From assembly GCA_009712185.1 (NCBI GenBank), contig WASQ01000036.1, positions 94,935 through 158,934 on the forward strand: 64,000 nucleotides of DNA, in the 5' to 3' direction. The notes beneath the pieces are model-generated. The model ran no database searches. It had not been told where the DNA came from and was given only the letters and a program-made list of their open reading frames with translations. Below are positions 7,141 through 37,816 of this stretch, one piece after another (the first letter of the stretch is position 1; each line of letters starts with the position of its first letter). Made by a program: the position numbers and the translations under genes. The DNA comes from Telmatospirillum sp. (GTDB lineage: Bacteria > Pseudomonadota > Alphaproteobacteria > Rhodospirillales > Magnetospirillaceae).

Positions 7141-7893
7141 CTATCTCTGTTCTGACGGCCCCAATCGTTCCGGCCCCCGTCGTTCCGATCCCTGCGGTTT
7201 CCTGGTCGTCTCGGCTTCTTCTTGCGAGGCTGCAAGGCCGGCCAGCACGAAACGGTGAAGGTGTCCGACCATAAAGTCGACGTCCGTGGGTCTTGCCGCA
7301 ACATTGGGAAACAGGTGCGAGAAGACTCCGCGATCGGCGATCAGCATCATGACGCAAGGCGCGACCGTGGTGACGATGCCCCGGGTGACAGCCGGATGGG
7401 ATTCGGGAAGCGACATCAGTTCGGCCACGATCTGACGGACATGGCCGATCTTTGGCATGACCTCGCGCACCCGGAGTGTCTCGAACATGGGGGTCGGCAT
7501 CACGATTTCGCGCCCCAGGATTCGAAACGCCCCGGACGACGCCGTCGTCCCCATGGCGGCGCGCACGAACAGTTCGATGCCCGATCTCAATTTTTCGGGA
7601 GCGGCCATCCGCGAGGACGCAAGGGCGGACAATGAGTCTTCCGTCACCAGATGCCGGTGCGCCTCGATCAGAACCGCCAGATACAAATCCTCCATGCCCC
7701 CGAAATGGTAATTGATCGCCGCCGGGTTGACGGAGGCCCGGTCACAGATCGCCCGGCCGGTGGCGCGATCGAAACCGTATTCCGCGAAAACAGATCTGGC
7801 GGCCTCCAGAAGAAGTGTTCTGGTGCTTCCATCATCTGCCGAATGGGCGCGAGGTTTCCGCCGATAAGGCCTAAAAGTAGGGGAATTATCCAT
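7141..7893 (-). CDS. pltZ: TetR-family regulator, PltZ-like, divergent from exporter operon
   Basis: TRTLLLEAARSVFAEYGFDRATGRAICDRASVNPAAINYHFGGMEDLYLAVL HTH; neighbours a plt-type exporter. Confidence 0.75.
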   Translation of the reverse strand: MDNSPTFRPYRRKPRAHSADDGSTRTLLLEAARSVFAEYGFDRATGRAICDRASVNPAAINYHFGGMEDLYLAVLIEAHRHLVTEDSLSALASSRMAAPEKLRSGIELFVRAAMGTTASSGAFRILGREIVMPTPMFETLRVREVMPKIGHVRQIVAELMSLPESHPAVTRGIVTTVAPCVMMLIADRGVFSHLFPNVAARPTDVDFMVGHLHRFVLAGLAASQEEAETTRKPQGSERRGPERLGPSEQR

Positions 7894-7923
7894 AGTTGTT
7901 ATACTAACGGTTCTGTCTGTTCA

Positions 7924-7961
7924 GTCAAATTCAAAATGCAAATTTCAAATTCACATTTGAC
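7924..7961. promoter_or_regulatory. Candidate TetR operator in the divergent promoter
   Basis: Inverted repeat GTCAAAT-N24-ATTTGAC between divergent TetR and HlyD genes. Confidence 0.5.
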
Positions 7962-7993
7962 ATTAAAATGAGTTGGGTCTAATCTCAACCATC

Positions 7994-9019
7994 ATGAAAC
8001 GCGCTATCCCAATGATCCTGATCCCCACCCTGGCTGCGTTGGCTGGCGGCTATTGGTGGCAATCCCAACGGGCCGAAAAGCCGGCCGATTTCGCGCTTTA
8101 TGGCAATATCGATCTGCGTCAGGTCTCTCTCGCGTTCAATGGTGATGCCCGGATTGTCACGCTCTCCGTCCAGGAGGGCGATCACGTTCATCCAGGACAG
8201 GTTCTGGGCAACCTCGATGCGGATCGCCTGACGCACCAGCTTGCCGAGGCGACAGCACAATTGGAGGCACAACGTCAACTTGTCCTCAGGGCGCATAACG
8301 GCAGCCGGCCCGAGGAAATCGCTCAAGCCAGGGCCTCGGTCGCGGCCTCTGAGGCCGATGCGGCCTATGCCCGCAACCAGTTGGACAGACTTCAAAAGGT
8401 GGCCTCCACGTCAAGTGGGGAAGCGGTCAGCCGCCAGGACCTCGACAACGCCAAGTCCGCCCTCGACGCCGCCAATGCCAGGCTTGAGAACGCGCGCAAA
8501 GCTCTTGAACTCGCAGTCCTGGGACCGCGCAAGGAGGATGTCGCGCAGGCCGAGGCCCTGCAAAAGGCGGCTGAGGCGAAGGTGGCCTATTTGCGTCGTC
8601 TCCTGGCCGACACCACCCTGATTGCGCCCGCCAATGCGGTCGTGCGCAATCGCCTTCTGGAGCCGGGCGACATGGCGTCGCCCGAAAAACCGGTTTATTC
8701 ACTCGCCATCGTCGATCCGAAATGGGTCCGGGCGTTCGTTTCCGAAACCGACCTGGGCCGGCTTCGCCCCGGCATGGCCGCGAAAGTCTCCGCCGACAGT
8801 TTTCCCGGCCGCCAGTTCGACGGATGGATCGGGTTCATATCGCCGGTGGCCGAGTTCACTCCGAAATCCGTCCAGACGGAAGAATTGCGGCCAAGTCTGG
8901 CTTATGAGGTGCGGGTCTTCGTCAAGGATCAGAATGACGAATTGAGGCTCGGCATGCCCGCGACCGTGCGGCTGGTCCCGGCCGGCGGAGACCAGCAACA
9001 TCCGGCGTCGTCATCATGA
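7994..9019 (+). CDS. HlyD/membrane-fusion subunit of plt-type ABC exporter
   Basis: N-terminal TM, GNIDLRQVSLAFNGDARI...EGDHVHPGQVLGNLD...PANAVVRNRLLEPGDMASPEKPVYSL; operon context. Confidence 0.85.
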   Translation: MKRAIPMILIPTLAALAGGYWWQSQRAEKPADFALYGNIDLRQVSLAFNGDARIVTLSVQEGDHVHPGQVLGNLDADRLTHQLAEATAQLEAQRQLVLRAHNGSRPEEIAQARASVAASEADAAYARNQLDRLQKVASTSSGEAVSRQDLDNAKSALDAANARLENARKALELAVLGPRKEDVAQAEALQKAAEAKVAYLRRLLADTTLIAPANAVVRNRLLEPGDMASPEKPVYSLAIVDPKWVRAFVSETDLGRLRPGMAAKVSADSFPGRQFDGWIGFISPVAEFTPKSVQTEELRPSLAYEVRVFVKDQNDELRLGMPATVRLVPAGGDQQHPASSS

Positions 9020-10818
9020 TCGCCGGCGGGGCGGATAAAACCGCCGCGCCGCCGAAAGTGGTGTCGATCAGGGGTGTCGGCAAGACCTTCCGGCGGGGCG
9101 GCGCGCGGATCAGGGCGTTGGACAACGTGTCGCTCGACGCCGACGCCGGCAGTCTGGTCGCCCTGGTCGGCCCCGATGGTGCCGGCAAGACGACGCTGCT
9201 CCGGATGATCGCGGGGTTGGTATCGATCGACACCGGCAGCGTCGCGGTGCTCGGTTTCGACGCAGCGCGCGATCCGCAGTCCATTCAGTCGCGGATCGGA
9301 TACATGCCCCAGCGGTTCGGCCTCTACGAGGACCTCAGCGTTCAGGAGAACATGGACCTCTACGCCGACCTCAATGGCGTGACGGCGGCGGAACGCAGGG
9401 AGAGGTATCCGCGCCTGATGGAGATGACCGATCTTGGACGTTTCCTCGATCGTCCGGCCGGAAAACTGTCCGGAGGCATGAAACAGAAGCTTGGCCTGGC
9501 CTGTACATTGGTGCGCCCCCCCAGACTGTTGCTTCTCGATGAGCCGACGGTGGGCGTCGACCCCCTCTCCCGCCGGGAATTGTGGGAGATCATTCTTCAT
9601 CTGGTTCGCGACGACAAGCTGACCGCCATCGTCAGCACCGCGGCCCTTGACGAAGCCGAGCGTTGTGACCGTGCGCTTTTGATGCATCTGGGCAAGGTGC
9701 TGTCGGAAGGCAGTCCCGAAGCGATTGCCGGCCGCGCGGAAGGCCGCGTCTTCCTGGCCGATCCCGGCCCGGACGAACCGGCCCGGCGCCTTCAGTCCCG
9801 CTTGCTCGATGACGATGCGGTTCTGGACGCTGTCCCGGAAGGCGGACAGGTTCATCTTGTCATGCGCCAGGGCTGCGGTCCTGCGGCCGTGGGGCTGTCG
9901 CCGGAGCCGGCCCTCCCCCGTTTCGAAGACGGCTTCATGACCCTGTTGCATGAGGCCGGCGCGGGTGGCCATGCGGCCGGCGGCGCGATGACCCTGGCCC
10001 GGCCGCCGGAGAAAGGGGCGGATGATGTGGCGATCGAGGTCAGCGATCTCGTCAAGACATTCGGCGATTTTGTCGCGGTCGACCATGTCAGTTTCCGGGT
10101 TCGCAGGGGGGAGATCTTCGGGTTGCTGGGGCCGAACGGCGCTGGCAAAACGACGACCTTCCGGATGTTGTGCGGTCTTCTGGCCGCCAGCGGCGGGACT
10201 TTGCGCGTGGCGGGAGAGGATCTCAGGGTCGCCGGCGCGTCAGCACGCCAGAAGGTGGGATATGTCGCGCAAAAATTCGCGCTCTATTCCCAGCTTTCGG
10301 TCCGGGAAAATCTGGATTTCTACGCCAGTGCCTACGGCCTCAGCGGACGCGCACGGCGTGACAGAATTGAATGGGCGATGACCCAGTTCGAATTGACGGA
10401 GCTGGCCCGGGTTGTCAGCGGTCAGCTTCCGGGTGGTTTCAAGCAGCGCCTGTCCATGGCGGCGGCCTTGATGCACGGGCCGGAAATCCTGTTCCTCGAT
10501 GAACCGACCAGTGGTGCCGATCCGTTGGCCCGCCGCGAGTTCTGGCGGCGGATCACCGCCCTGTCGGATCAGGGCGTGACGGTCATCGTCACCACCCATT
10601 TCATGGAAGAGGCCGAATACTGCGACCATGCCGTCATTCAGGATGCCGGCCGCATTCTCGCCAAAGGGACGCCGGCGGAAATCCGTGCGCGGGCCAGGGC
10701 GCAACCGGGCGGGCGGCCAACCATGGAGGACGCCTTCATTGCCATTGTCGAAGAAGCCCGCGCCAGGCCCCACGAAAAGCCGGTTGACAAATCCGGGGTC
10801 AGGGGAGGTCCATCATGA
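9016..10818 (+). CDS. Fused dual-NBD ABC transporter ATPase (YbhF-like)
   Basis: Two Walker A motifs (GPDGAGKTTLL, GPNGAGKTTTF), LSGGMKQK and LPGGFKQR signatures, LLLLDEPTVGVDP and EILFLDEPTSGADP. Confidence 0.9.
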   Translation: MIAGGADKTAAPPKVVSIRGVGKTFRRGGARIRALDNVSLDADAGSLVALVGPDGAGKTTLLRMIAGLVSIDTGSVAVLGFDAARDPQSIQSRIGYMPQRFGLYEDLSVQENMDLYADLNGVTAAERRERYPRLMEMTDLGRFLDRPAGKLSGGMKQKLGLACTLVRPPRLLLLDEPTVGVDPLSRRELWEIILHLVRDDKLTAIVSTAALDEAERCDRALLMHLGKVLSEGSPEAIAGRAEGRVFLADPGPDEPARRLQSRLLDDDAVLDAVPEGGQVHLVMRQGCGPAAVGLSPEPALPRFEDGFMTLLHEAGAGGHAAGGAMTLARPPEKGADDVAIEVSDLVKTFGDFVAVDHVSFRVRRGEIFGLLGPNGAGKTTTFRMLCGLLAASGGTLRVAGEDLRVAGASARQKVGYVAQKFALYSQLSVRENLDFYASAYGLSGRARRDRIEWAMTQFELTELARVVSGQLPGGFKQRLSMAAALMHGPEILFLDEPTSGADPLARREFWRRITALSDQGVTVIVTTHFMEEAEYCDHAVIQDAGRILAKGTPAEIRARARAQPGGRPTMEDAFIAIVEEARARPHEKPVDKSGVRGGPS

Positions 10819-12065
10819 CGGCTGCCGACGATACCGGTTCCCCCCGCGCGCGCATGCGCCGGGTTGCCGCGCTGGTGCGTAAGGAAAGCCGGCAGATTCG
10901 CAGGGATCCCAGCAGCATCACGATCGGCGTGTTGTTGCCGGTCCTGCTGATTCTTCTGTTCGGTTACGGACTGTCGCTGGATGTGAAGGATGTTCCGGTC
11001 GCGGTGGTCCTGGAGGATACCTCTCCCGCCGCCCTGGAACTGGCCGCGGGTTTCCGCCTGTCGCCCTACTTCAAGTCGGTCGAAGGCGTCAGCATGGCTG
11101 ACGCCCATGAGGCGATGCTGCAACGGAAAGTGGATGCGGTGATCCGGATCCGCGAGGATTTTTCCCGCAAACTGACCAACGGCGGTGCGACGGTCGAAGT
11201 CCTGCTGCACGGTATCGACGCCAACCGCGCCCGCATTATCCAGGGCTATGCCGAGGGCGCCATTCAGATGTTCAACGCCCGTTACACCGATCATGAACGG
11301 TCGGCGGCCGGCCGTCGGGGGGCGCCGCCCCCGGGGGGGGGAGGGCGGAGGGGGGGGTGCGGCGCCGCCCGTTACACCGATCATGACCGGGCGGCGGCCG
11401 GTCGTCTGGCGGCGCCGCCGCCGGTGGATGCACGTCTCAGGAAGTGGTTCAACGAGGCCGATGACAGCCATTATTTCCTCGTTCCCGGCCTGATCGTGCT
11501 GGTGATGACGCTGATCGGCGCAATTCTGACCGCTCTGGTGATGGCCAGGGAATGGGAACAGGGCACTCTCGAAGCCCTGTTCGTGTCGCCTGTCCGGGTT
11601 CCGGAGATCCTGCTCGGCAAAACAATCCCCTACTTCGGTCTGGGCCTGATCGGACTGGTGCTCTGCATTCTGTCGTCCAGCATTCTGTTCCATGTTCCCT
11701 TCCGGGGATCGGTACTGGTGCTTTGCGGCGCCTCGATGCTCTATCTGCTGGTGTCGCTGGGGCTTGGCCTGCTGATTTCCTCCGCGGTGAAAAACCAGTT
11801 TCTGGCAAGCCAGTTCGCAGTTCTTCTGACCTTTCTGCCTGCCCTGATGCTGTCGGGGTTCCTGTTCGATCTGCGGAGCATTCCCGCCGTCGTGCGCGCC
11901 ATTACCCATGTGGTTCCCGCCCGCTATTACGTCGAACTCCTTCAGACGATCTTTCTCGCCGGCGACGTCTGGCCGGTCATTCTGCCCGATATCGCAATCC
12001 TCACCGGGATCATGCTGTTGCTGCTGGCGCTTGCCCGCAAGGCGACCCGGAAAAGAGTGGGGTAA
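10815..12065 (+). CDS. ABC-2 type permease (contains in-frame 30-aa tandem duplication)
   Basis: RKESRQIRRDPSSITIGVLLPVLLILLFGYGLSLDVK...EWEQGTLEALFVSPVRVPEILLGK. Confidence 0.9.
   Translation: MTAADDTGSPRARMRRVAALVRKESRQIRRDPSSITIGVLLPVLLILLFGYGLSLDVKDVPVAVVLEDTSPAALELAAGFRLSPYFKSVEGVSMADAHEAMLQRKVDAVIRIREDFSRKLTNGGATVEVLLHGIDANRARIIQGYAEGAIQMFNARYTDHERSAAGRRGAPPPGGGGRRGGCGAARYTDHDRAAAGRLAAPPPVDARLRKWFNEADDSHYFLVPGLIVLVMTLIGAILTALVMAREWEQGTLEALFVSPVRVPEILLGKTIPYFGLGLIGLVLCILSSSILFHVPFRGSVLVLCGASMLYLLVSLGLGLLISSAVKNQFLASQFAVLLTFLPALMLSGFLFDLRSIPAVVRAITHVVPARYYVELLQTIFLAGDVWPVILPDIAILTGIMLLLLALARKATRKRVG
11279..11428 (+). repeat. Imperfect 90-bp-offset tandem duplication with G9 and G8 tracts inside the permease gene
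   Basis: cgttacaccgatcatga at 11280 and again at 11370; intervening gggggg cgccgcccccggggggggg agggcgga gggggggg. Confidence 0.8.
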
Positions 12066-12068
12066 ACC

Positions 12069-13187
12069 ATGCTTGCCTCCCTGTTACGCATTCTGGCTCT
12101 GACCCGCAAGGAGCTGCTGGCGGTTCTCAAGGAGAAACGCAGCCGGGTTAGCCTGTTCGCCCCGCCGATCGTTCAGTGTCTGTTGTTCGGCTATGCGGCG
12201 ACCTATGACATTTCCTACGTGCCCTATGCCGTCATCGACCGGGATCACAGCGCCGCGTCGCGGGAATTCCTGGCGCGGCTCGATGGATCCGGCGTCTTTG
12301 AGCGCATTGCCGAGCCGGCGCGGATCGACGATCTGAAGACGGCGATCGATACCCGGAAAGTGCTGGTCGCGATCATCATCGACGGCGACTTCGAACGCCG
12401 CCTCTCGCTGGGAGAGCCGGCGGCCGTTCAGGTCATCGCCGATTCGCGCAATTCCAACACGGCCGGAACCGCGTCGCGCTACGTCAACGAAATCGTCGCC
12501 GGATTCGGGGAAACTTGGGCTGCGGGCCACGGAGCCCGGCCACGGCCGGTCCGATCGGAGGTGCACGCCTGGTACAATCCCAATTTTGAAAGTCGCTGGC
12601 AGTTCATTCCGGGAATGATCGCCACGCTGACCATGTTGCAGACACTGTTGCTGACATCGATGTCGGTGGCGCGTGAGCGCGAACAGGGCACGTTCGACCA
12701 GCTTCTGGTGACGCCCTTCAGACCGCTGGAGATCATGGCCGGAAAGGCGATCCCCCCGATTCTGATCGGCATCGTTCAGGCGACCCTGGTGATGCTGGTC
12801 GGCCGCTTCTGGTTCAATGTGCCGTTCTCCGGTTCGGTCATGACGCTTTACACCGGTCTGGGTCTGTTCCTTCTGGCCTCCATCGGGATCGGCCTTCTGG
12901 TGTCGTCCCTGGTGTCCACCATGCAGCAGGCCATGTTATTCACGTTCGTCCTGCTGATGCCGTTCGTCCTGTTGTCCGGCCTGACCACCCCGATCGCCAA
13001 TATGCCCTACGCGCTGCAACAACTGACGTTCGGCAATCCCCTGCGCTACGCCGTCGAAATCGTCCAGCGGATCTTTCTGGAAGGCGTCGGTCTCGACCGC
13101 CTGCTGCCGGATCTCTGGCCGCTCGCGGTCATGGGGGTGCTGTCGCTTGCGGCGGCGTCGTGGCTGTTCCGTCATCGCTTCGAATAG
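12069..13187 (+). CDS. ABC-2 type permease (second exporter permease)
   Basis: LTRKELLAVLKEKRSRVSLFAPPIVQCLLFGYAATYDISYVPYAV...REREQGTFDQLLVTPFRPLEIMAGK. Confidence 0.9.
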   Translation: MLASLLRILALTRKELLAVLKEKRSRVSLFAPPIVQCLLFGYAATYDISYVPYAVIDRDHSAASREFLARLDGSGVFERIAEPARIDDLKTAIDTRKVLVAIIIDGDFERRLSLGEPAAVQVIADSRNSNTAGTASRYVNEIVAGFGETWAAGHGARPRPVRSEVHAWYNPNFESRWQFIPGMIATLTMLQTLLLTSMSVAREREQGTFDQLLVTPFRPLEIMAGKAIPPILIGIVQATLVMLVGRFWFNVPFSGSVMTLYTGLGLFLLASIGIGLLVSSLVSTMQQAMLFTFVLLMPFVLLSGLTTPIANMPYALQQLTFGNPLRYAVEIVQRIFLEGVGLDRLLPDLWPLAVMGVLSLAAASWLFRHRFE

Positions 13188-13202
13188 AGGAAGGACCCGA
13201 TC

Positions 13203-14711
13203 ATGTCCGGATTGCGCACGTTCCATCTCGCCGGTCTCGGCCTTGGCGTCCTTCTTGCCGGTTGCCAGGTCGGTCCGGACTTCCAGAGCCCGGACGCAAA
13301 GGCGCCTGATGTCTGGCGGGTCGGACCGCCCGCCGCCACGGATATCAAAAGCCATGTCGTTTCCGACACTATCGATGCCTCCTGGTGGGGCGCCTTCGGC
13401 GATCCGCTGCTGAACGACCTCGAACAGCGGGCCGGGCAGTCCAATCTTTCGATCGCCGCATCGGCCCAGCGGATCGTTCAAAGCCGGGCCATCCGCGCCG
13501 TCGCCGGTGCCGATGCCGTGCCTTCGCTCGACGCCAATGCCTCTTATGAGCGGCAGCGCCTCAGCGCCAACGGCCAACTGGCTTCGATCGCCAAAGGAAG
13601 CGGCCGGTCGATCAGAAGCGGCGATATCTGGCAGTTCGGCTTCGACGCTTCGTGGGAGTTGGATCTTTGGGGCCGCGTGGCCCGGAACATAGAGGCGTCG
13701 GACGCCTCACTGGAAGCCTCGCTCCAGGATCACCGTGATGTGGTGCTGGCGGTCAGGGCCGAGATCGCCCGCAATTACGTCGACCTGCGTCGCATCCAGG
13801 CCACCCTTGCCCTTAACCGCGAACTTGCGGGGACGGCCTCCCACATCCTGAAACTGGTTGCAAACCGTTCGACCGGCGGTACCGCGACCGGGATCGATGT
13901 CGCCAACGCCCGCTCTCTTCTCGAACGGATCGATGCCGACAATCCACGGCTGGAGCAGGAGCAGGAGCAGGCAATCAATGCCATCGATCTGCTGCTGGGA
14001 GAGCAGCCGGGGACCCTGCGTCCCACGCTGATTGAGACCGGGCCTGTTCCGCCGGTGCCGTCCCAGGTGCCGATCGGGCTTCCGTCCGATCTGGCCCGCC
14101 GGCGGCCCGACATCCGGCGCGCAGAGGCGCAATTGCATGCCGCCACGGCGGAAATCGGCGTCGCGGAAGGAGCTTTCTATCCCCGCATCACCTTGTCCGG
14201 CGATGCTTCCTTGCAGGCCATGCAGTTCCGTGATCTCGGCAACTGGTCGTCGCGCCAGTTCGGGATCGGTCCCGGCGTGTCTCTTCCGATTTTCCAGGGG
14301 GGCCGGCTCACGGGAAATCTCGAATTCAGCAAGGCTCGGGAAAGAGAGGCCGCCATCGCCTATCACGCCGCTGTTCTCGACGCCTGGAGAGAGGTGGATG
14401 ACAAATTGGCCGCCTATCACGGCGAACAGCAGCGCAACGCCCGGCTGGCCCGGACGGTGGAGGCCGACCGGCGCGCCCTGTCCCTTGCCCATGACCGGTT
14501 CGACGGAGGGGTGGCGGATTTCGTCTCCGTCCTGGAAGCCCGTCGGACGATGCTGAGCAGCCAACAGGCCCTGGTCGAGAGCCAGGGCACCCTGGCGACC
14601 GATCTGATCGGCTTATACAAGGCCCTGGGCGGAGGATGGGACGACACCGTGGTCACAGTCCTGGAGGAAAAACTGTCTCAGGTCACCGGCTCTTCTGGCA
14701 AGAATCCGTAA
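13203..14711 (+). CDS. Outer membrane efflux lipoprotein (NodT/TolC family)
   Basis: Lipobox LLAGCQVGPDFQSPD; WWGAFGDPLLNDLEQRA...LARRRPDIRRAEAQLHAATAEIGVAEGAFYPRITLSG. Confidence 0.9.
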   Translation: MSGLRTFHLAGLGLGVLLAGCQVGPDFQSPDAKAPDVWRVGPPAATDIKSHVVSDTIDASWWGAFGDPLLNDLEQRAGQSNLSIAASAQRIVQSRAIRAVAGADAVPSLDANASYERQRLSANGQLASIAKGSGRSIRSGDIWQFGFDASWELDLWGRVARNIEASDASLEASLQDHRDVVLAVRAEIARNYVDLRRIQATLALNRELAGTASHILKLVANRSTGGTATGIDVANARSLLERIDADNPRLEQEQEQAINAIDLLLGEQPGTLRPTLIETGPVPPVPSQVPIGLPSDLARRRPDIRRAEAQLHAATAEIGVAEGAFYPRITLSGDASLQAMQFRDLGNWSSRQFGIGPGVSLPIFQGGRLTGNLEFSKAREREAAIAYHAAVLDAWREVDDKLAAYHGEQQRNARLARTVEADRRALSLAHDRFDGGVADFVSVLEARRTMLSSQQALVESQGTLATDLIGLYKALGGGWDDTVVTVLEEKLSQVTGSSGKNP

Positions 14712-14730
14712 GCAGAGCTCCCGGGCGAAT

Positions 14731-14931: not shown

Positions 14932-15768
14932 CTAACGCGCCTCCGCCTCCGTTTGCCGCGACGCCGGACGCGCGAGAACGGACCGGATGGCAGCATGAAC
15001 CGGACCGGCCGCGTCGGTGAGAAAAAAGTGACCGCCGTCGAACAGCCGTTCGGTGACCCCGGAACTGCCGTAGCGGCGCCACTGGCTCACATCCTCCGGC
15101 GGCGCCAGGGGATCGTCGCGGCCGCCCAGGCAAAGGATCGGACGGGCGATCGGAGGTCCTCCATCCCGGGGCCGCGACCGGACCAGGGCAATGTCCGCCT
15201 GGATCACCGGCAGCATCATGTCCATCAGATCGGGTTCCTCTAGAATGATGCGCGGGGTGCCGCCCATGGCTGCCAGGGTCCGGATCGCGTCCTCCCGGTC
15301 CATCTGATGGAGGGGCGGAACGCGATGCGGCACATGGGGGGGCGCCATGCCGGAAAGGACGAGATGGCGGGGAAGCGTTACCCCCGTCTCCTGGAAGCGG
15401 CGCGCCACCTCATAGGCCAGGAGGGCGCCCATGCTGTGCCCGAAGAAGACCACGGGCGCCCCCTCCATAACCGGCGCCAGGGCGCGGGCCAGGGCCGGAA
15501 CCGCGTGTGCCATGTCGCGCCAGGGTGTCTCTTCCCGACGCCCTTCCCGACCGGGCAACTGGACCGCGCACAGTTCGGCGATGTCGCCCAGGGGCGACAG
15601 CCACTGGTGGACGGCGGCGGCTCCTCCGCCGGCATAGGGGAAGGCCACGAGGCGCGGCCTTCCCGGTGCCGGACGGCGATAGGGCAGCCAGGTTGCGAGC
15701 GCGGCCATGACGGATACGGCCCCGCTCGCCTCCACCTGTCCAGCGCCGATCTGGAAAGAGCCGGTCAT
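14932..15768 (-). CDS. pltG: Type II thioesterase (PltG-like)
   Basis: LVAFPYAGGGAAAVHQWL, VQLPGREGRREE, VFFGHSMGALLAYEVARRF, FDGGHFFLTD; position at operon end. Confidence 0.8.
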   Translation of the reverse strand: MTGSFQIGAGQVEASGAVSVMAALATWLPYRRPAPGRPRLVAFPYAGGGAAAVHQWLSPLGDIAELCAVQLPGREGRREETPWRDMAHAVPALARALAPVMEGAPVVFFGHSMGALLAYEVARRFQETGVTLPRHLVLSGMAPPHVPHRVPPLHQMDREDAIRTLAAMGGTPRIILEEPDLMDMMLPVIQADIALVRSRPRDGGPPIARPILCLGGRDDPLAPPEDVSQWRRYGSSGVTERLFDGGHFFLTDAAGPVHAAIRSVLARPASRQTEAEAR

Positions 15769-15769
15769 G

Positions 15770-18420: not shown

Positions 18421-18421
18421 A

Positions 18422-27408: not shown

Positions 27409-30400
27409 TCAGACCCCGACCCCGTCCAGGTCCTGGAGTTCCCGGCTCAATGCATCCAATAATTGATCGTCCGTCATGTCGCCGGCCGTTCCGGCGTTCC
27501 GGTCCTGGTCTTGAACCGGCCGTTCCACGATCCGGCTTCCCGCGGTGGGGCCGGCATCCGTCGTGAAGGTGAAGCCGTCCTCGATCAACGCCGTCACCAC
27601 GGCCTCGATCGATGTCCGTTCGAAGGCGAAGGTGCTGGGCAGCGACAATCCACTCAGCCGTTCCAACCGGGATCGCAGGTCCACGGCCATCATTGAGGTC
27701 ATCCCCATGTCGAAGAATCCCCGCCGAACGTCGAGTTCGTCCGGCGCGTCGTAACCGAAGACGTCGGCGATCACCTTGCGGACATGGTTCATCAGGCGGT
27801 GGCGGCGCAGCTCAGGGCTTAAGGCCTCGAGTTCCCGGCGCAGGCTTCCCTCGCCGGTGCCACCGTCCGGCCGTTGCCCCACCTGATCGAGAACCGGCCA
27901 GGGAAGGACGGCCTGATAGAGCGGCCTTAAGACGGCCCAGTCGACGGCTGCGATCCCGGCGCGTGCGGGCCCGTTCCAGACCAGCCGGTCGAGGCAGGCC
28001 AGGGCGGTCTCATCCTTCAGCGGGTCGAGGCCGCTCTGGCGCATCAGGCGCAGGTCGTCAGGCCGGTTGCGAACAGCGCGGTCCCACTGTGTCCAGGCGA
28101 TGGACACCGAAGGACGGCCGGATCCACGGCGGGTCTCGGCCAGGGCATCGGCGAAGGCATCCACGGCGGCGGCACGCCCCATGCCCATACCGCCCCACAG
28201 CGCGGCGGCACTGCCGAAGGTTGCGAAAAGGCGGATGGGATCGGATCGCGTCAGGCGGTGCAAAGCCACGACAACGCCCGCACGGCGCTTCAGCGTCTCC
28301 GCCATGGCCGTTTCGGACATCGACGCCAGAGGTGTCATGGTCCAGTCATGCCCACCGTGAATGACGCCGACGATGGGCCCTCCCGCCCTGAGACGGGCGA
28401 TTTCACCCGCCAGCGCCTCCCGATCATCAGGACTGATCTCAAGTCTTTCGATCAGAGGACCGCCCGCATCCGCGCTGGCAACAGACGGATCCCCCCCGAG
28501 CAGCGCGACCCGTCCGACGCCGGTCCCGGCCAGCCATTGCAGGATCGGCGGGGCAAGGTCCGGCGCCGCATCATGAAGGATGACACACCCGTCCTTCGGC
28601 AGGGTGTCGTGGCGCGGCGGCGGGGCAACCTGTTCCACCACCTGGGCCGCCCGAAGGGTGCCGTCGCGTAACAAAAGATGATCATGTGGCAGGTCGGCAG
28701 CCAGCAGATCGGCCAGAAGCCGAAGATTGCGGCCATCGCTCAGATCGATGTCGGCGACGCCACGCCACCAGGCCGGATGTTCAAGACCGAAGCAGCGGAC
28801 AAGCCCCCAGATCGATGCCGCCGCCGGCCGGCTGGCCGGACCATCCGCCTCAACGGCCTGTTCGGTCAGAAACAGGATCGGCTTCCCGCTGTCGCGGATG
28901 GCCGACGCCGCGCGGGACAGAGCCAGAATATCGGCGATCCGCGGCAACAGTCCGCCGGTCGGATCATCGGGCAGCCCGTCGGGCAGGCCGAGGCCGGCGG
29001 CGTGCAGGACGCCCTGGCATCTGGGATCCATGGCCTGTTCGCGCAGGAGACGTTGCAGACGCCGATCGGCTGCCGGGTCCCAATGGCCGTCCGGCGTTCC
29101 CTGCGACCGTTCTTCCGCCACGGTCCGGATCATGACGCCCCGGGTCGCCGCGGCCGCCACCAGCGGTCGTGCGAGGTCCTCGCGGTCACCGATCAACAGC
29201 CAGAATCCCGCTGGTGTCGCCGGTGGGACCGGCTGGTCCAGGTCCCACCATGCCAGGGTATAAGTCCGCGCCTCCGGTCCCGCGGCGTCCGTGCCCGTGC
29301 CGGTAATCGTGCCGGTAATCGTCTCCGTAGTGGTGTCCGCGCATGAGGGACTGCCGGCATGCGCGGACAGACCGGACAGGACCAACAGGATCGTCCCGTC
29401 GCCGGCCTCGACGGCCAGAGTGCCGTCCCGCCGGTGGCGAACCGCGAGGGCGCCATCGGGGACGCCATTCCCGACGGTCAGGCCGGAGCAGACGCCCCCA
29501 TTCCGGTTGAAATCGGCGGCCAGCAGATCCACCGAGGCTTCGATGAGAGCGATCCGCCGTTCCCGCGCCGTCAGGCCGTCGGGAATGGCGATGGTGCCGT
29601 CATGGTGGCCGGGATCCCCTGGATGGTCGTGATCCCTCTGCTCGCCGAAGTCCCGGGGCGTCACGGCGTCCACCTGAGCGATCAGGCAGGGCTGCCATCC
29701 GCTGTCCGGAAGGCTGCGGTCAATACGGATCGCGACCGGCCGATCGTCCTTCAGCTCCAGACGCAGATGCAGCGCGAGCCGGTCGGTCAGGCCGATATCC
29801 GGTCCGGGAGAAATCCACAGCTCCAGCATCTGCCGCTGCAATGTTCCGCAAGCTTTTGCCATCGCGGCAAGGGCCAGTTCGGCCAGCGCCGCCGGTCGCA
29901 ACCGACGGCCGGTTCCCGAGAGGCTGAACAACTGGGAATCATCGCCGCAGGGTCCGGTCCAGCCGATACCGTCGCCATCCGTCAGCGGCGGCTCCCGCAG
30001 GAGAGGGCATGACCGGCCGGTGTCCCGCGATTCTCCGGTCCCGGCGACCAATACCGGGGTTGCCGGGGCGATCCAATAGGATTGCGGTTCCCACGGATTG
30101 GTGGGGAGATCCGCAACCGGGCCCGGCAGGGGCCAAAGCTCGCGCCAGTCCACCTCCATTCCGGCGAGAAAGCGGCCCACCAGGGCGGCCGTCCGCCCCG
30201 TCCTGCCGTTTTCGGGTATCGGGCGACCGTCCAGCCAATTCTCCAGCGCTGCCGCCAGGTCATCCGGACGGGATCCCCAGACAGCCAGCCGTTGAGGGAG
30301 CTGGGCGCGCCCTCTTGCCGCGGTCCGGCAGACCGCGCCGGCATCCGGCTGCGTCTCGCGCAGCCATCGGGCGATTTGAAGCGCGTGAGTTCTAAGGGCC

Positions 30401-33400
30401 GTCGGAGTCCTGGCCGACAACACCAGAGGCAGATCGGCCCCGGCCGTCTCAGGAAAGGACGCTGCGGACAAGGACGACGAAGCGGCGCCGTCATCATGTC
30501 CCGCGATCACCACATGAACATTGGTCCCGGTGAATCCGAATGCGCTGATTCCGGCCAGGCGTTCCGCCGGCTGCCCGGCCCAGGGTTCGACGGTCGTCGG
30601 GACGCGAACCTTGAGCGCGGTCCAGTCCACGCGGCGATTGGGCGTTTCGAAAGCCGGATGGGGTGGCAGAACGCCTTTCTGGACACAGAGGCAGGCCTTG
30701 ATGAAAGCGGCGATGCCGGCCGCGGCTTCCAGATGGCCGATATTGCTTTTCAGGGCGCCGATCCGCAGGGGATTGCGCGGATCTCGTCCCGTTCCATAAA
30801 CCGCGTCCATGGCCTGGATTTCGATCGGATCCCCGAGCACGGTGCCAGTGCCATGCGACTCGACATAGCCGATCTCGGCCGGTTTGCGGTTGGCGGCGGC
30901 AAGGCTGTCGCGGATCAGAGCCTGCTGCGCCGGTCCGTTGGGAACGGTCAGGCCGGCGCTGGGGCCGTCATGATTGACGGCCGATCCCAGGATGGTGGCG
31001 ATGATCCGATCCCCGTCGGCAATCGCCCGTGCCAGAGGTTTCAGCACAACGACGCCGCAGCCTTCGCCCCGCCCGTAACCGTCCGCACTGTCATCGAATG
31101 TTTTGCACCGTCCGTCGGGGGCCAGAGCCCCCGCATCGCCCATGGATCGGAAAATAGCGGGGGATGCGATCACATTGACGCCGCCTGCCATCGCGAGATC
31201 GCATTCGCCCTTGAGGAGGGACTGGCAGGCCAGGTGAATGGCCGTCAAGGAGGAGGAGCATGCGGTGTCCACCGTCAGGCTGGGGCCCTGAAGCCCGAGA
31301 CTGTGGGAAAGGCGGCCGGAGACCGCCGAAAAGGAGGTCCCTGTTCCCCAGTAGGCATCGATCCGGCCGGGATCGGCCGCGATCCGGAGATCATAGTCGT
31401 GTGAGTTGACGCCGGCGAAAACCCCCGTTCGGCTGCCCTGAAGCCGGTCGGGGGCGATGCCCGCGCGTTCCAGCGCCTCCCAGGCGACGGTCAGAAACAG
31501 ACGCTGCTGCGGGTCGAGCCGGAGCGCCTCCTTCGGTGAAATCTGGAAAAAGTCCGCGTCGAAAGCCCCCGGATCGTCGAGGAAACCGGCATGGTCCGGG
31601 AAGCGCCCGTTTCCCGCCTCCGGGTAGTCCGCATCCGCCCAACGTCCACCCGGGATGGAGCGAACCGCGATCCGACCCTGCTCAAGAAGGGACCAGAAGG
31701 CGTCCGGGGTGTCGGCCTCCGGAAAACGGCAGCCAATGCCGATCACAGCCACGACAGGGTCGGGCGCCAAGGTGTCCCGGCGCCCGTCGGCGCCCGTTGC
31801 AACCGTGACCGGAGGGGATTCGGCCCCCTGTTCCGGGGTTGAAAGAGCCAGTTTTTCCGCGATGAACGCCGCCAGCCGATGCACCGTCGGGAAATCGAAC
31901 CCGATCGTGGCCGGCAGGCCGCAGCCGAACCGGGCCTGGAGAGCCTGCCGCAATTCCACCAGCATGATGGAGGTCAGGCCCAGTTCAAAAAAGCCGCGTC
32001 CCCTGTCCACCGGCATCGCCTCGTCGAGGCCGAGAAGGTCCCGCAGCACCGTGTCGATCGCCGCTTCGATGGCGTCGACCGTGACAGGTGCCGCAGCCGG
32101 CCTGGCCGGTCCATCCCGCATGGGCGCGGGGCGCGGGGTGCCGGCCGTGGGGGTTATGCCGCCAGCCTCCGCAAGAACCCGGCCGGTGCGGTCAAGGATC
32201 CGCACCTCGGCGACGAGTTGCGACAGGTCCATCGCGGCGGGCGCGCGGTCCGGCGCGTCGAACCAGAAACGGCGATGCTGCCAGGGATAGGACGGCAGGC
32301 CGGTCAGCCGGCCGGCCGGATGGACGGCATTCCAGTCGATGTGTGCGCCGCCGGCATGAAGACCCGCCAGGGCGGCGGCAACCGTTTCCAACCCCGCCCT
32401 CCCCCTGACCAGGGCGCTGGCGACATGGCCGTTCAGGGCCTTTTCCTGCAGGCATTGCGTGACCGGTGGCGCCAGAACCGCATGGGGACCGATTTCCAGG
32501 AACAGCCGGTGGCCTTTGGCCGTCAGCCGGTCGATCGCGTCGCGGAAGCGGACGGGCTGGCGGATGTTGTCGGCCCAATAGGCGGCGTCGCCAACAGGCG
32601 TGCCGTCCGGACCGTGGCAACTCGATATCCAGGAAATCTCCGCCCCGGAGGGGGAAAGTCCCTTCAGGCGTTCGATCAGGGGCGCCCGATAGGGCTCCAT
32701 CTGGCGGCTGTGAAAGGCGTAGGCACCGGGAAGCAGCAACGCGAAAACGGTCTGGCGGGTCAGGTCGGCCGCCAGGGCCGTGAGAGTCTCCTCCGGTCCG
32801 GCAAGAACCACCGAGGCCGGACTGTTGAACGCCGCGACATCAAGGTCGGGATAGCGGGACAGCACCTCGGCAAGGGCGTCTCCCGCCAGGGCGGTGGCGA
32901 GCATCCGCCCGCTGCCGGCGCTGTCGCGCATCACATCCGCGCGGTGGAAGATCACTCTGACGCCGGTCTCGAGGTCCAGCACGCCCGCGCACCAGGCCGC
33001 CGCGACCTCGCCCATCGAGTGGCCGACGACCGCCGCCGGTGTGACGCCCCAGGCGCGGAACCGCTCTGTCAGCGCGGCCTGGAGGGCGAAGATGACCGGT
33101 TGGGCGATTTCGGTCCGGGACAGGCGGGAACTGTCGGCAGGGCGGCGTAATTCCTCCTCGATCCGCCAGTCGGTCAGCTTGGCCATTTCCGCGTCGCATC
33201 GACGGATGGTGGCCGCGAAGACCGGATCCTGGTCCAGAAGGTCGACAGCAACACCCGCCCATTGCGCCCCCTGCCCGGTAAAAACGAACACGGGGCGCAG
33301 TTCCTCGTCATCGTCCGGGGTTTCCGCTGCCCTCGGCGCGGCCTCGGCGATTTTCCGCAGATCCGCGGCAAGCGAGGCGCTATCGCGGCCGATCGCGACG

Positions 33401-34929
33401 GCGCGATAGGACCAGTGGTCCCGTCGGCAGGCCGCAGTATGCAAAATGTCGGGAAGATCCTCCGCTGGCGCCGATTCGATCCGGTCGGCATAGCGAAGGG
33501 CCTGGGCGCGCAGTGCCTCGACGGATCGCGCCGAGACAGGAACCATGGCCGGCCAGGGTGTCCGCGCCGGCAACAGTCCGGCCTGCTCGCCGGAAGGGGG
33601 GGGCGCCGACGCCGGGGGCGCGGACAGGATCACGTGAACATTGGTGCCGCTGAGGCCGAACGCGCTGATTCCGGCCATCCGGACTGACACGCGGTCGGGC
33701 GCGCGGTCAGGCCAGGGGCGCAGTTCGCGGGTCACGGCGATGGGCGCCTTGTCCCAATCGATGGCGGGCGTCTGCCGGTGCAGATGGATCTGCGGCGGGA
33801 TTTCGCCATGGCGTATCGCGGCAACGAGCTTGATCAGTCCCGCCACTCCGGCTGCGGCGTCCATATGGCCGAAATTGGCCTTCAGCGACCCCACCAGCAG
33901 TTTCTCGTCACGTCCCCGGAAGACCTGGCACAACGCATCCAGTTCGATGGGATCGCCAAGCGGCGTGCCGGTTCCGTGCGCCTCGACATAATCGATGTCG
34001 CGGGGCTGCACATGAGCCGCGGCCAGGGCGGCGCGGATGACGGCAACCTGCGCATTTCCGTTGGGGACAGTCTGGCCGGCGCTGGCGCCGTCGTGATTGA
34101 CGGCGGATCCCCGAATGACGGCACGGATTTCATCGCCATCGGCCAGCGCATCGCAGAGACGCTTCAGAACGACAATGCCGCAGCCCTCTCCGCGAACGAT
34201 GCCATCGGCCCCGGCGTCAAAAACATGGCAGCGGCCGGTTGGCGAGATGGCCCGGACCTGGCTCATGAAGACGGTCAGATCGGGGGCGAGCATCAGATTG
34301 ACGCCGCCGGCCAGGGCAAGATCGGACTCGCGCGCCGCCAGAGACCGGCAGGCCAGATGAAGTGCCACCAGCGACGAGGAGCAGGCCGTCGAGACGGTCA
34401 GTGCCGGGCCGTGTGCCCCCAGATGGTAGGACAGACGTCCGGCGCCAAAGCTGAATTCCTTACCCGTCGCATAATAGGGGTTGATGCCGTCGACGCCGGC
34501 TTGACGGGAATGCAGCGCCAGATAGTCCATGCTCAACATACCGGTGAAGACGCCGGTTCTGCTGCCGCGAAGGCTCTGGACCGGAAGGCCCGCGTCCGCG
34601 AGGCTTTCCCAGGCCACTTCGAGAAGCAGCCGCTGTTGCGGATCCAGTTCCTTCGCTTCGCTTGGAGAGAAGCCGAAGAAGGCGGCGTCAAAGCCGTCGA
34701 TGCGGTCCAGAAAAGCGCCTTCCCGGCAATAGGTCGTCCCGGGACGGCCGGCTTCGGCATCATAAATGGCGTCCGCGTCCCAGCGGTCGGCGGGAACTGC
34801 GCCGACCGCGTCAACACCGTCGCGCAGGAGCCGCCACAGATCCTCTCCCGTCCCCGCTCCCTTTGGGAAACGGCATCCGGTGCCGATGATGGCGATCGGT
34901 TCGTATGGCAGGGGCAGGCTCGCATCCAT
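27409..34929 (-). CDS. pltB: Type I PKS, KS-AT-ACP-KS-(degenerate DH/KR-like)-ACP (PltB-like)
   Basis: KS1 STACSSSLVALH, AT GHSMGEVAA with YAFH, ACP FFELGLTSIMLVEL; KS2 DTACSSSLTAIH / ESHGTGTVLGDPIE; second ACP FFDMGMTSMMAVDL. Confidence 0.9.
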   Translation of the reverse strand: MDASLPLPYEPIAIIGTGCRFPKGAGTGEDLWRLLRDGVDAVGAVPADRWDADAIYDAEAGRPGTTYCREGAFLDRIDGFDAAFFGFSPSEAKELDPQQRLLLEVAWESLADAGLPVQSLRGSRTGVFTGMLSMDYLALHSRQAGVDGINPYYATGKEFSFGAGRLSYHLGAHGPALTVSTACSSSLVALHLACRSLAARESDLALAGGVNLMLAPDLTVFMSQVRAISPTGRCHVFDAGADGIVRGEGCGIVVLKRLCDALADGDEIRAVIRGSAVNHDGASAGQTVPNGNAQVAVIRAALAAAHVQPRDIDYVEAHGTGTPLGDPIELDALCQVFRGRDEKLLVGSLKANFGHMDAAAGVAGLIKLVAAIRHGEIPPQIHLHRQTPAIDWDKAPIAVTRELRPWPDRAPDRVSVRMAGISAFGLSGTNVHVILSAPPASAPPPSGEQAGLLPARTPWPAMVPVSARSVEALRAQALRYADRIESAPAEDLPDILHTAACRRDHWSYRAVAIGRDSASLAADLRKIAEAAPRAAETPDDDEELRPVFVFTGQGAQWAGVAVDLLDQDPVFAATIRRCDAEMAKLTDWRIEEELRRPADSSRLSRTEIAQPVIFALQAALTERFRAWGVTPAAVVGHSMGEVAAAWCAGVLDLETGVRVIFHRADVMRDSAGSGRMLATALAGDALAEVLSRYPDLDVAAFNSPASVVLAGPEETLTALAADLTRQTVFALLLPGAYAFHSRQMEPYRAPLIERLKGLSPSGAEISWISSCHGPDGTPVGDAAYWADNIRQPVRFRDAIDRLTAKGHRLFLEIGPHAVLAPPVTQCLQEKALNGHVASALVRGRAGLETVAAALAGLHAGGAHIDWNAVHPAGRLTGLPSYPWQHRRFWFDAPDRAPAAMDLSQLVAEVRILDRTGRVLAEAGGITPTAGTPRPAPMRDGPARPAAAPVTVDAIEAAIDTVLRDLLGLDEAMPVDRGRGFFELGLTSIMLVELRQALQARFGCGLPATIGFDFPTVHRLAAFIAEKLALSTPEQGAESPPVTVATGADGRRDTLAPDPVVAVIGIGCRFPEADTPDAFWSLLEQGRIAVRSIPGGRWADADYPEAGNGRFPDHAGFLDDPGAFDADFFQISPKEALRLDPQQRLFLTVAWEALERAGIAPDRLQGSRTGVFAGVNSHDYDLRIAADPGRIDAYWGTGTSFSAVSGRLSHSLGLQGPSLTVDTACSSSLTAIHLACQSLLKGECDLAMAGGVNVIASPAIFRSMGDAGALAPDGRCKTFDDSADGYGRGEGCGVVVLKPLARAIADGDRIIATILGSAVNHDGPSAGLTVPNGPAQQALIRDSLAAANRKPAEIGYVESHGTGTVLGDPIEIQAMDAVYGTGRDPRNPLRIGALKSNIGHLEAAAGIAAFIKACLCVQKGVLPPHPAFETPNRRVDWTALKVRVPTTVEPWAGQPAERLAGISAFGFTGTNVHVVIAGHDDGAASSSLSAASFPETAGADLPLVLSARTPTALRTHALQIARWLRETQPDAGAVCRTAARGRAQLPQRLAVWGSRPDDLAAALENWLDGRPIPENGRTGRTAALVGRFLAGMEVDWRELWPLPGPVADLPTNPWEPQSYWIAPATPVLVAGTGESRDTGRSCPLLREPPLTDGDGIGWTGPCGDDSQLFSLSGTGRRLRPAALAELALAAMAKACGTLQRQMLELWISPGPDIGLTDRLALHLRLELKDDRPVAIRIDRSLPDSGWQPCLIAQVDAVTPRDFGEQRDHDHPGDPGHHDGTIAIPDGLTARERRIALIEASVDLLAADFNRNGGVCSGLTVGNGVPDGALAVRHRRDGTLAVEAGDGTILLVLSGLSAHAGSPSCADTTTETITGTITGTGTDAAGPEARTYTLAWWDLDQPVPPATPAGFWLLIGDREDLARPLVAAAATRGVMIRTVAEERSQGTPDGHWDPAADRRLQRLLREQAMDPRCQGVLHAAGLGLPDGLPDDPTGGLLPRIADILALSRAASAIRDSGKPILFLTEQAVEADGPASRPAAASIWGLVRCFGLEHPAWWRGVADIDLSDGRNLRLLADLLAADLPHDHLLLRDGTLRAAQVVEQVAPPPRHDTLPKDGCVILHDAAPDLAPPILQWLAGTGVGRVALLGGDPSVASADAGGPLIERLEISPDDREALAGEIARLRAGGPIVGVIHGGHDWTMTPLASMSETAMAETLKRRAGVVVALHRLTRSDPIRLFATFGSAAALWGGMGMGRAAAVDAFADALAETRRGSGRPSVSIAWTQWDRAVRNRPDDLRLMRQSGLDPLKDETALACLDRLVWNGPARAGIAAVDWAVLRPLYQAVLPWPVLDQVGQRPDGGTGEGSLRRELEALSPELRRHRLMNHVRKVIADVFGYDAPDELDVRRGFFDMGMTSMMAVDLRSRLERLSGLSLPSTFAFERTSIEAVVTALIEDGFTFTTDAGPTAGSRIVERPVQDQDRNAGTAGDMTDDQLLDALSRELQDLDGVGV

Positions 34930-34983
34930 GGCGGTTCTCCGCTGGTTCTTGACGGTGCCTTAGAGGGAACGGTCCGGTCCGGC

Positions 34984-36333
34984 TCAGGCCACCGGCTCGG
35001 GTGCCTTGACGGTCATGTCGCCCAGATAGCGATGCCACAGATGATCGGGATCGCTCTCAACCGCCGTGACGATCTCGCGCATCCGGTCCAAGACCTCGAA
35101 GCGCTCTGCGCGGTAAACATCGCCTTGAAGAAGCTGCAAAATATCAAGGCGATAGCGGGGATCCTGAACAAACGCAGTGAACAGGATGTTGAGGCGGTAA
35201 TAGAGCGTGATGAATTCGTACCAGTTCTTGACGCCGTTGCGGATCATCTCCTTGTAGTGAGAGAAGCGTTCGGCGCGGAAATCGTTGGCCTTGACCGCCG
35301 GTACGATATCCATGCTGGCGATTCTGGCGCTGTTCAACGCGACGCTGACGCCACTTGAGAAAATGGGGTCGACGAAGCGGGCGGCGTCGCCGATCAGCAC
35401 GAAGCCGTCGCCGCAAACTTCCTTCATGCTGTAGCTGTAGTCGGCCTCGGACTTCAGTGGGCGGAGTTGCTTCGACGCTTTGAGGGCATCATGGATATTG
35501 GGGCGGGTCTTCAGCGTCTCCCAGAAGAACTCTTCCAGCGATGACTTGGAATTGACGTAGTTCTTTTTCTGAGTGACGACGCCGATGCTGGTGATGGTAT
35601 CGGTAATGGGAATCTGCCAGACCCAGGTGTTTGTCACCGGCAGGAAGTGAATGAAAATGTAGTCCAGTTTCTTCGGGTTTTCGGTTGCGGCCCGGCGGTC
35701 GTAACCGTCAAACCAGGTATGGATGGCGAACTGATTGAAAACCGGATCGGTTTCGCGCAGGTCGAACTGCCGTCCCAGCATGGTGTGGCGGCCACTGGCA
35801 TCCACGACCATCTTCGTCTTCAGCTCAACGGTCTGGTTGCCCAGCTTGACATGCAGCCGGACGTCTCCCGGAGCCTTGATGTCCACATTGCGAACCGTTA
35901 CGCCCTGATAGGCCTGCGCGCCCAGCTCAACGGCATGTTCGAGGAGGATCCGGTCGAATTTGCCGCGATCGACATGGAAGGTATAATCCCGGTCCACGCC
36001 GGTCTGGGACCGTTCGTTGAACATGATCTCGGCGGACCGGAAATCATGGTCCAGTCCCTGGAATCCCATTTTGTCGACCGGCCCGGATTCTGCCGAGGTC
36101 CAGGCGGCGCCGAACTTTCTGGGAAATCCAGCGGCCTCGATTTTTTCCATTGCTCCGATTTCAAGCAGCACCGGTGTGGTGGCCGGGACCAGCGATTCGC
36201 CCACATGGGCCCTTTCGAAAATTTCCCGCTCGAAAATGGCGCAGCTCACCCCCGCCTTGGCGAGGTAGGACGCCATGGTGGATCCGGCCGGTCCGCCGCC
36301 GATGATGCCGACATCAAAATCATAGTCAGTCAT
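34984..36333 (-). CDS. pltA: FADH2-dependent pyrrolyl-S-PCP halogenase (PltA-like)
   Basis: FDVGIIGGGPAGSTMASYLAKAG; FPRKFGAAW; NTWVWQIPITDTI (WxWxIP); located between PCP and PKS genes. Confidence 0.9.
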   Translation of the reverse strand: MTDYDFDVGIIGGGPAGSTMASYLAKAGVSCAIFEREIFERAHVGESLVPATTPVLLEIGAMEKIEAAGFPRKFGAAWTSAESGPVDKMGFQGLDHDFRSAEIMFNERSQTGVDRDYTFHVDRGKFDRILLEHAVELGAQAYQGVTVRNVDIKAPGDVRLHVKLGNQTVELKTKMVVDASGRHTMLGRQFDLRETDPVFNQFAIHTWFDGYDRRAATENPKKLDYIFIHFLPVTNTWVWQIPITDTITSIGVVTQKKNYVNSKSSLEEFFWETLKTRPNIHDALKASKQLRPLKSEADYSYSMKEVCGDGFVLIGDAARFVDPIFSSGVSVALNSARIASMDIVPAVKANDFRAERFSHYKEMIRNGVKNWYEFITLYYRLNILFTAFVQDPRYRLDILQLLQGDVYRAERFEVLDRMREIVTAVESDPDHLWHRYLGDMTVKAPEPVA

Positions 36334-36499: not shown

Positions 36500-36751
36500 C
36501 TACGCTTGCAACGAACGGACAAGGGCGACAATCGAGGAAAGATCCTTGAAGTGCTTTCCTGTAATCGCCGAGGGTGGAATCGTAATTCCAACCTCTTCAC
36601 GGACAAAAACCATCAGCTTGGCAATGTTCATTGAATTGAGCACGCCCCATTCCAGCAACGGAGTATCGGGCTTCAGATCTGAATTTGCCGACTGAAGCAG
36701 GTCATTGACGATGTAGGTCTGAATTTTGTTTTGCAGGATTTCAGTTTCCAT
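36500..36751 (-). CDS. pltL: Discrete peptidyl carrier protein (PltL-like)
   Basis: 83 aa; LLEWGVLNSMNIAKLMVFVREEVGITIP with phosphopantetheine Ser; operon head. Confidence 0.85.
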   Translation of the reverse strand: METEILQNKIQTYIVNDLLQSANSDLKPDTPLLEWGVLNSMNIAKLMVFVREEVGITIPPSAITGKHFKDLSSIVALVRSLQA

Positions 36752-37056
36752 GATGAATACCCTTTCACGAAGTCTGTTGTCGTCAGCCGTTTACCGATGG
36801 CGCTCCGTACCGGACCTTTTTCAGGTCCGTTTCACGCCCGGATCCCGGCTCCTCCCCGCCGGTTGGTCCGCGGCGGGAAAGGTTGGCGTCCCCTTCCCTG
36901 GTCATCGGCTTTGGTTTCGATGGCCTGAAGGGAAATGCGAATGAAAACGGATTTAATTCACTGTTTTGTAATGTAATTTTTTATATGAACCTAAAAACGA
37001 TCTGGAAATAGAAGTTTTAAAATTTACAACACCACTCTACCGTTAATAACCACTTT

Positions 37057-37093
37057 GTCAAATTAGAATTTAAAATTAGTATTTAAAATTGAC
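37057..37093. promoter_or_regulatory. Candidate TetR operator upstream of second TetR gene
   Basis: GTCAAATT...AATTGAC quasi-palindrome, same half-site as 7924..7961. Confidence 0.4.
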
Positions 37094-37114
37094 TGCCAGG
37101 ACAAAAGCGATAGT

Positions 37115-37816
37115 ATGAAGGGCATGTCGACCAAATCCCTTCCTTCTCAACCGCTTCGCCGTCACCGCCGTTCCCGCGCGATGGACGAAGGCGGCACCCG
37201 GACCCTTCTCCTGGAGGCGGCCGGAACGGTTTTCGCGGAATGCGGTTTCGACCGCGCCACCGGGCGGGCCATCTGTGACCGGGCCTCGGTGAACCCGGCC
37301 GCGATCAACTACCATTTCGGCGGAATGGAGGAACTTTATCTCGCCGTTCTGATAGAGGCGCACCAACGGCTGGTGACCGAGGAAACGCTGTCGGAAGTGG
37401 CCGCAGCCGCCTTTCCTCCGACCGACAAGCTGCGCATCGTGATCAGTTATTTCGTGCGAGCCGCCTTCGGCGCCGGGGACAACGCATGGGCGTTCCGGGT
37501 CCTCGGCCGGGAGATCATCATGCCGACCCCGATGTTCGAGGCATTGCGCGTGCGCGAGATCATGCCGAAGATCGGACATGTCCGTCAGATCGTCGCCCAG
37601 CTCATGGAGCTCCCCGAGGACCATCCCGCGGTGACGCGTAGCTTTGTCAGCACGATGGCCCCCTGCATGATGATGCTGATTGCCGATCATGAGATTTTCG
37701 GGAATCTGTTTCCCCGGATCGCGGGGGGAGCCGGAGACGGGCTGGATCCGCTGATCGATCACCTCCTGCGGTTCGCACTTGCCGGTCTGGAGGTCGCGAA
37801 ACGGGCGGCGATGTGA
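37115..37816 (+). CDS. TetR-family regulator, close paralogue of the 7141..7893 protein
   Basis: TRTLLLEAAGTVFAECGFDRATGRAICDRASVNPAAINYHFGGMEELYLAVLIEAHQRLVTEETLS; near-identical HTH to the first. Confidence 0.85.
   Translation: MKGMSTKSLPSQPLRRHRRSRAMDEGGTRTLLLEAAGTVFAECGFDRATGRAICDRASVNPAAINYHFGGMEELYLAVLIEAHQRLVTEETLSEVAAAAFPPTDKLRIVISYFVRAAFGAGDNAWAFRVLGREIIMPTPMFEALRVREIMPKIGHVRQIVAQLMELPEDHPAVTRSFVSTMAPCMMMLIADHEIFGNLFPRIAGGAGDGLDPLIDHLLRFALAGLEVAKRAAM

Follow-up and report, generated by a model that had tools for sequence, protein, structure and literature searches.

A pyoluteorin-type gene cluster with an added halogenase and a putatively rewired control circuit in an alphaproteobacterium

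The locus considered here lies within a 64-kb stretch of Telmatospirillum DNA, which we call the window and whose positions are used throughout. Gene calls reproduced a minus-strand series that an earlier note had described from the letters alone, namely a carrier protein, a halogenase, two PKSs, two halogenase-like proteins, a dehydrogenase, an adenylation enzyme, and a thioesterase, with overlaps or short gaps between neighbors. All eight genes of the Pseudomonas set pltLABCDEFG have orthologs in this series, with protein identities of 43%–77%. These are a peptidyl carrier protein (pltL-like, 36500–36751; 54%), a pyrrolyl-S-PCP halogenase (pltA-like, 34984–36333; 77%), a bimodular PKS (pltB-like, 27409–34929; 43% overall and 67% over KS1), a second PKS (pltC-like, 21967–27378; 52%), pltD (18422–20149; 54%), a prolyl-PCP dehydrogenase (pltE-like, 17281–18456; 67%), an L-proline adenylation enzyme (pltF-like, 15770–17284; 58%), and a thioesterase carrying a GHSMG motif (pltG-like, 14932–15807; 46%). 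The pltE-like and pltF-like genes overlap by 4 bp (17281–17284). Order and strand are as in Pseudomonas, and the lone interruption is an additional gene on the same strand, here termed X (20241–21881), which sits between pltC and pltD to give the arrangement pltLABC-X-DEFG. Reference values derive from two plt clusters (genomes G1024 and G972) of a genus taken as Pseudomonas from its CrcZ RNA, in which plt was present in 2 of 399 genomes.

The resemblance of this series to plt is not a chance outcome, given the matches of PltA to the P. protegens enzyme (PDB 5dbj; 815 bits), of PltF to 6o6e (606 bits), and of PltL to 2n5h (85 bits). For the pltE-like protein, the top NCBIfam models were the PigA and RedW-type prolyl-PCP dehydrogenases, with scores under their cut-offs. 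None of the three refuting outcomes named in the earlier note was obtained, these being a PltF pocket unsuited to proline, core enzymes placed with a different pyrrole pathway, and a Pseudomonas host. In trees covering PltA, PltE, PltF, and PltD, the local proteins formed clades with Pseudomonas plt rather than with another pyrrole pathway (support 97/99, 99/98, 100/99, and 100/100, respectively; ultrafast bootstrap 97%–100%). Pyrrolomycin-type actinobacterial and cyanobacterial homologs fell outside these clades, and no grouping of the local core enzymes with the pyrrolomycin-type proteins was seen. The proline-pocket motifs of PltF, when inspected, were the same as those of Pseudomonas PltF; the positions of the pocket code follow the GrsA scheme.

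The two PKSs also retain the Pseudomonas architecture. PltB reads KS-AT-ACP-KS-(degenerate KR)-ACP and PltC reads KS-AT-KR-ACP. Both here and in Pseudomonas, PltB contains a single AT, its KR has lost the catalytic residues, and the KR of PltC is intact. Met222 is present in KS1 of PltB, a residue described in one report as the selector for the dihalogenated pyrrole (PMC12670696), and the first KS domains of actinobacterial clusters carry it too. Met222, the single AT and dead KR of PltB, the intact KR of PltC, and the PltF pocket together lead us to expect the skeleton of pyoluteorin, with the proviso that PltB is only 43% identical to its counterpart and the PKS output may therefore be altered. 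Another possible product is a phenol of the monodeoxypyoluteorin or pyrrolomycin type instead of a resorcinol. Makers of the two ring types cannot be told apart by their KR motifs, since actinobacterial pyrrolomycin-type clusters likewise pair an intact PltC KR with a degenerate PltB KR, and both X and an antiporter near the cluster resemble genes of those clusters. We nonetheless consider a phenol product decidedly unlikely because PltA, PltE, PltF, and PltD are strongly supported sisters of the Pseudomonas plt proteins and the architecture of PltB and PltC is the same as in Pseudomonas.

The two halogenase-like proteins named in the earlier note are both present, and their roles can now be told apart. 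Pseudomonas PltD is 54% identical to the 575-amino-acid protein and 34% identical to the 546-amino-acid protein, so the latter was rejected as PltD; the former is its ortholog (clade 100/100), and the latter, X, is extra and has no ortholog in Pseudomonas plt. The GxGxxG and WxWxI motifs are missing from PltD here and in Pseudomonas, and both are kept in X; the degenerate local PltD lacks WxWxIP. Similarly, PltD-like proteins of actinobacterial clusters lack WxWxI, and most also lack GxGxxG. According to the same report, PltD is an aromatizing dehydratase, and phenol-clade halogenases chlorinate the polyketide ring in pyrrolomycin-type clusters (PMC12670696).

X is a motif-intact flavin halogenase of the phenol, or CtcP, type. 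Its nearest Streptomyces relatives are 53% identical, and its match to tetracycline 7-halogenase (514 bits) is stronger than that to PltM (341 bits). In the tree, X forms a long branch with an unresolved sister among actinobacterial phenol-type halogenases, and PltM forms a separate long branch. By these comparisons, X appears nearest to the phenol halogenases of actinobacterial pyrrolomycin-type clusters, and not to PltM. A search of the host's own genome with X returned X and PltD alone. A contig scan with X, using patterns that require exact peptide matches, found no Pseudomonas locus, and its top matches were from Streptomyces.

Plain pyoluteorin could be made if X were silent, or if X, as a counterpart of PltM, chlorinated a small signal of the phloroglucinol type in place of the product. 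X and PltM belong to the same broad flavin halogenase class, have intact motifs, and share 36%–37% identity, and PltM is the halogenase of a regulatory signal in Pseudomonas (PMC8305169). However, PltM lies outside the biosynthetic operon in Pseudomonas whereas X lies inside it here, X is closer to halogenases of actinobacterial clusters than to the separately branching PltM, and PltR, the receptor of the signal, is not encoded at the locus. Plain pyoluteorin therefore seems an unlikely product. X could instead join two pyoluteorin units, as Mpy10 and Mpy11, halogenase-like flavoenzymes, homocouple pyrroles in marinopyrrole synthesis (PMC12942903). We regard such a dimer as very improbable, because there is a single X here as opposed to two enzymes for marinopyrrole and because X keeps both halogenase motifs. 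Chlorination of the polyketide ring by X is the reading that we carry forward.

Downstream of the biosynthetic genes, gene calls found the convergent plus-strand operon (7973–14711) and the tetR gene (7141–7893) that the earlier note had listed. The operon encodes a PltIJKNOP-like exporter composed of an HlyD-type adaptor (7973–9019; 49% identity to Pseudomonas; NCBIfam HlyD), a double ABC ATPase (9016–10818; 56%), ABC-2 permease 1 (10815–12065; 48%), ABC-2 permease 2 (12069–13187; 51%), and a NodT-family outer-membrane factor (13203–14711; 37%; TIGR01845), for an overall range of 37%–56%. Permease 1 contains an in-frame 90-bp tandem duplication (11276–11455) with long G/C runs in one copy, which is possibly an assembly or sequencing error. 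Relative to Pseudomonas, the exporter/tetR block is inverted.

The tetR gene of this block, tetR2 (minus strand), diverges from the exporter and encodes a PltZ-like repressor (CecR_C/DUF1956) that is 37% identical to Pseudomonas PltZ. A second PltZ-like gene, tetR1 (37115–37816, plus strand; the DUF1956 protein 7e1l is its closest match of solved structure), diverges from pltL. The two proteins are 64% identical to one another and 34%–37% identical to PltZ, and their genes stand at the two cluster ends as an inverted repeat. Gene calls revealed neither pltR, a LysR gene, nor pltM at the locus, and tetR1 occupies the place where pltR would be.

PltZ is a product-binding repressor with the published motif TNNAATTNNAATTNNA (PMC8305169). 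This motif occurs exactly at 2 sites in the 64 kb (0.02 expected), one in the pltL/tetR1 promoter (37058–37073) and the other upstream of a CPA2 antiporter gene (39391–39406). The first is paired with a site carrying 1 mismatch (37071–37086), so that the pair spans 37058–37086, and two further near-matches with 1 mismatch each lie between tetR2 and the HlyD gene (7925–7940 and 7945–7960). Allowing up to 1 mismatch gave 8 matches against 0.6 expected, with 6 of the 8 in three cluster promoters; shuffles preserving local composition gave p = 0.0005, 0.006, and 0.001 for the individual promoters. When a 40-kb Pseudomonas plt region was scanned as a control, operator matches were found at the pltI/pltZ promoter only, and PltZ binding at the pltL promoter was not seen in Pseudomonas (PMC8305169). 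With exporter orthologs and putative operators both present, PltZ-type repression of the exporter may operate here as well. More broadly, we infer that three units, the exporter, the biosynthetic operon, and the antiporter, may be under direct product-sensing control.

The second tetR gene belongs to the locus, and so, judged by its upstream operator, does the CPA2 cation:proton antiporter gene (37915–39168, minus strand), a proposed regulon member and self-protection gene. Homologs occur near actinobacterial pyrrole clusters. They were present in most pyrrole clusters examined, frequently adjoining pltE, and in 22 of the 78 loci fetched for X (28%–41% identity), a raw count for a large protein family. 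In these 22 loci (L061–L077, L032, L036, L038, L058, L086, and others), the CPA2 homolog and a gene for a phenol-type flavin halogenase are separated by no more than about 10 kb, and some of the loci are from Nocardia and have no plt genes. The host genome has a second related antiporter copy, split over the edges of contigs C138 and C22, where no biosynthetic context was found. Pyrrolomycins are proposed protonophores (PMC12942903), and we put forward the hypothesis that the antiporter protects the producer against its product.

The proposal that the host is an alphaproteobacterium and not Pseudomonas held up. The gyrA gene on the contig that carries the cluster (50020–52740, minus strand) is closer to that of Azospirillum (70% identity) than to those of Rhizobiales (63%) or E. 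coli (54%), and it reaches 88%–91% identity with three genomes of the same genus; no 16S gene was found in the host's own assembly. Homology to the same-genus genome G151 runs up to 4055 on the left and resumes from 40990 on the right. These flanks are only 686 bp apart in G151, and the cluster thus sits on a genomic island of ~37 kb (4056–40989). Contamination or mis-binning was rejected as an origin for the locus, at the level of assembly evidence, because both flanks are syntenic with G151. Recent transfer from Pseudomonas was also rejected, as identities are just 43%–77%. Within the island, a methyltransferase gene (6100–6867) was discarded as a tailoring candidate, for its orthologs are found at other places in sibling genomes (79% identity on contig C58 of G151 and 76% on contig C70 of G106). 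A second variable region is possibly present at 42783–48300, by a tRNA-Lys gene; this segment includes a GGDEF/EAL protein gene (42783–45164) and its neighbors, and its conserved flanks are ~2.7 kb apart in G151. Many more type I PKS genes lie on contigs C23, C64, C76, C114, and C142 of the host, whose genome seems to hold numerous biosynthetic clusters.

No PltA relatives beyond the host's own genome were found in samples of 398 genomes of the phylum (E ≤ 1e-80) and 385 of the class, or in 350 sampled genomes of the Pseudomonas class, a sample without a positive control. A search with X found no other plt loci in 317 sampled genomes of the order. A literature search, with most subscription journals outside its reach, returned no report of a plt locus in Alphaproteobacteria. 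Elsewhere, on the Brasilonema plasmid pBOCT1 (L144, 16814–41320), an NRPS/PKS line is adjoined by genes for a pyrrole starter, namely a dehydrogenase, an adenylation enzyme, a carrier, and a PltA-like protein (60%).

Two known systems provide the closest comparisons. With plt of P. protegens and relatives, the locus shares the pltLABC and pltDEFG orthologs with their order and orientation, a PltIJKNOP-like exporter, a PltZ-like TetR protein and operator, a degenerate PltD, and Met222 in KS1. Unlike Pseudomonas plt, it has X between pltC and pltD, a second PltZ-like gene, operators at the pltL promoter, an inverted exporter/tetR block, and a linked antiporter; it lacks pltR and pltM and resides in an alphaproteobacterium. 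With the pyrrolomycin-type actinobacterial clusters (relatives of pyr, mcs, and mpy; L012–L023 and L049), it has in common homologs of PltL, PltA, PltB, PltC, PltE, and PltF, a degenerate PltD-like protein, at least one intact phenol halogenase of the X group, and often a nearby CPA2 homolog. Those clusters differ in their lower identity (62%–67% for PltA, 53%–55% for PltE, and 50%–53% for PltF) and gene order, they usually have at least two X-type halogenases where this locus has one, and no PltIJKNOP-like exporter or PltZ-like repressor was matched in them.

The earlier view that a host other than Pseudomonas carries a complete and colinear locus of the plt type therefore stands, but the locus is not simply plt. 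Judged from its sequence, it is a complete, strongly diverged plt-type biosynthetic set with an added halogenase and an apparently rewired control circuit. The extra halogenase, the missing pltR and pltM, the duplicated repressors, and the inverted exporter together make an analogue likelier than pyoluteorin itself, and the product is most likely a compound with the pyoluteorin skeleton and additional ring chlorination. As a whole, the evidence is best explained by a plt-type pathway to an X-chlorinated pyoluteorin analogue that is self-induced via two PltZ-like repressors, a reading to which we assign a probability of roughly 0.6.

The enzyme identities, motifs, and operator sequences described above allow the following scheme, whose catalytic steps are carried over from Pseudomonas work. 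L-proline would be loaded onto PltL by PltF, and prolyl-PltL would be oxidized to the pyrrole by PltE and then dichlorinated by PltA. The dihalogenated pyrrole would be the only substrate taken by KS1 of PltB. Three malonates would be added by PltB and PltC, with a single ketoreduction by PltC. The dead halogenase PltD would drive aromatization to the resorcinol, with PltG helping release, and X would then chlorinate the electron-rich phenolic ring to give a ring-chlorinated pyoluteorin analogue. The two PltZ-like repressors would occupy the operators of three units, namely the exporter, the biosynthetic operon, and the antiporter, and product binding would free all three. The product would thus switch on its own biosynthesis, with no need for PltR or PltM.

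This locus is the only plt locus outside Pseudomonas that was found in the sampled sequences or the literature searched. Strongly diverged yet colinear, it forms a bridge between pyoluteorin and the family of chlorinated pyrrolomycins. More tentatively, it is possible that the pathway is a pyoluteorin/pyrrolomycin intermediate, in which synthesis of a new ring-chlorinated pyoluteorin, its export, and antiporter-based self-protection against a protonophore-like product would all be gated by twin product-sensing repressors, with one-component autoinduction replacing PltR and PltM. The presence of antiporters by many phenol-halogenase loci hints at a general form of self-protection among makers of protonophore antibiotics. 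From the locus, we would expect a new chlorinated analogue, and a simpler autoinduction circuit is suggested. The compound made by this bacterium is probably related to a well-known biocontrol agent but bears more chlorine.
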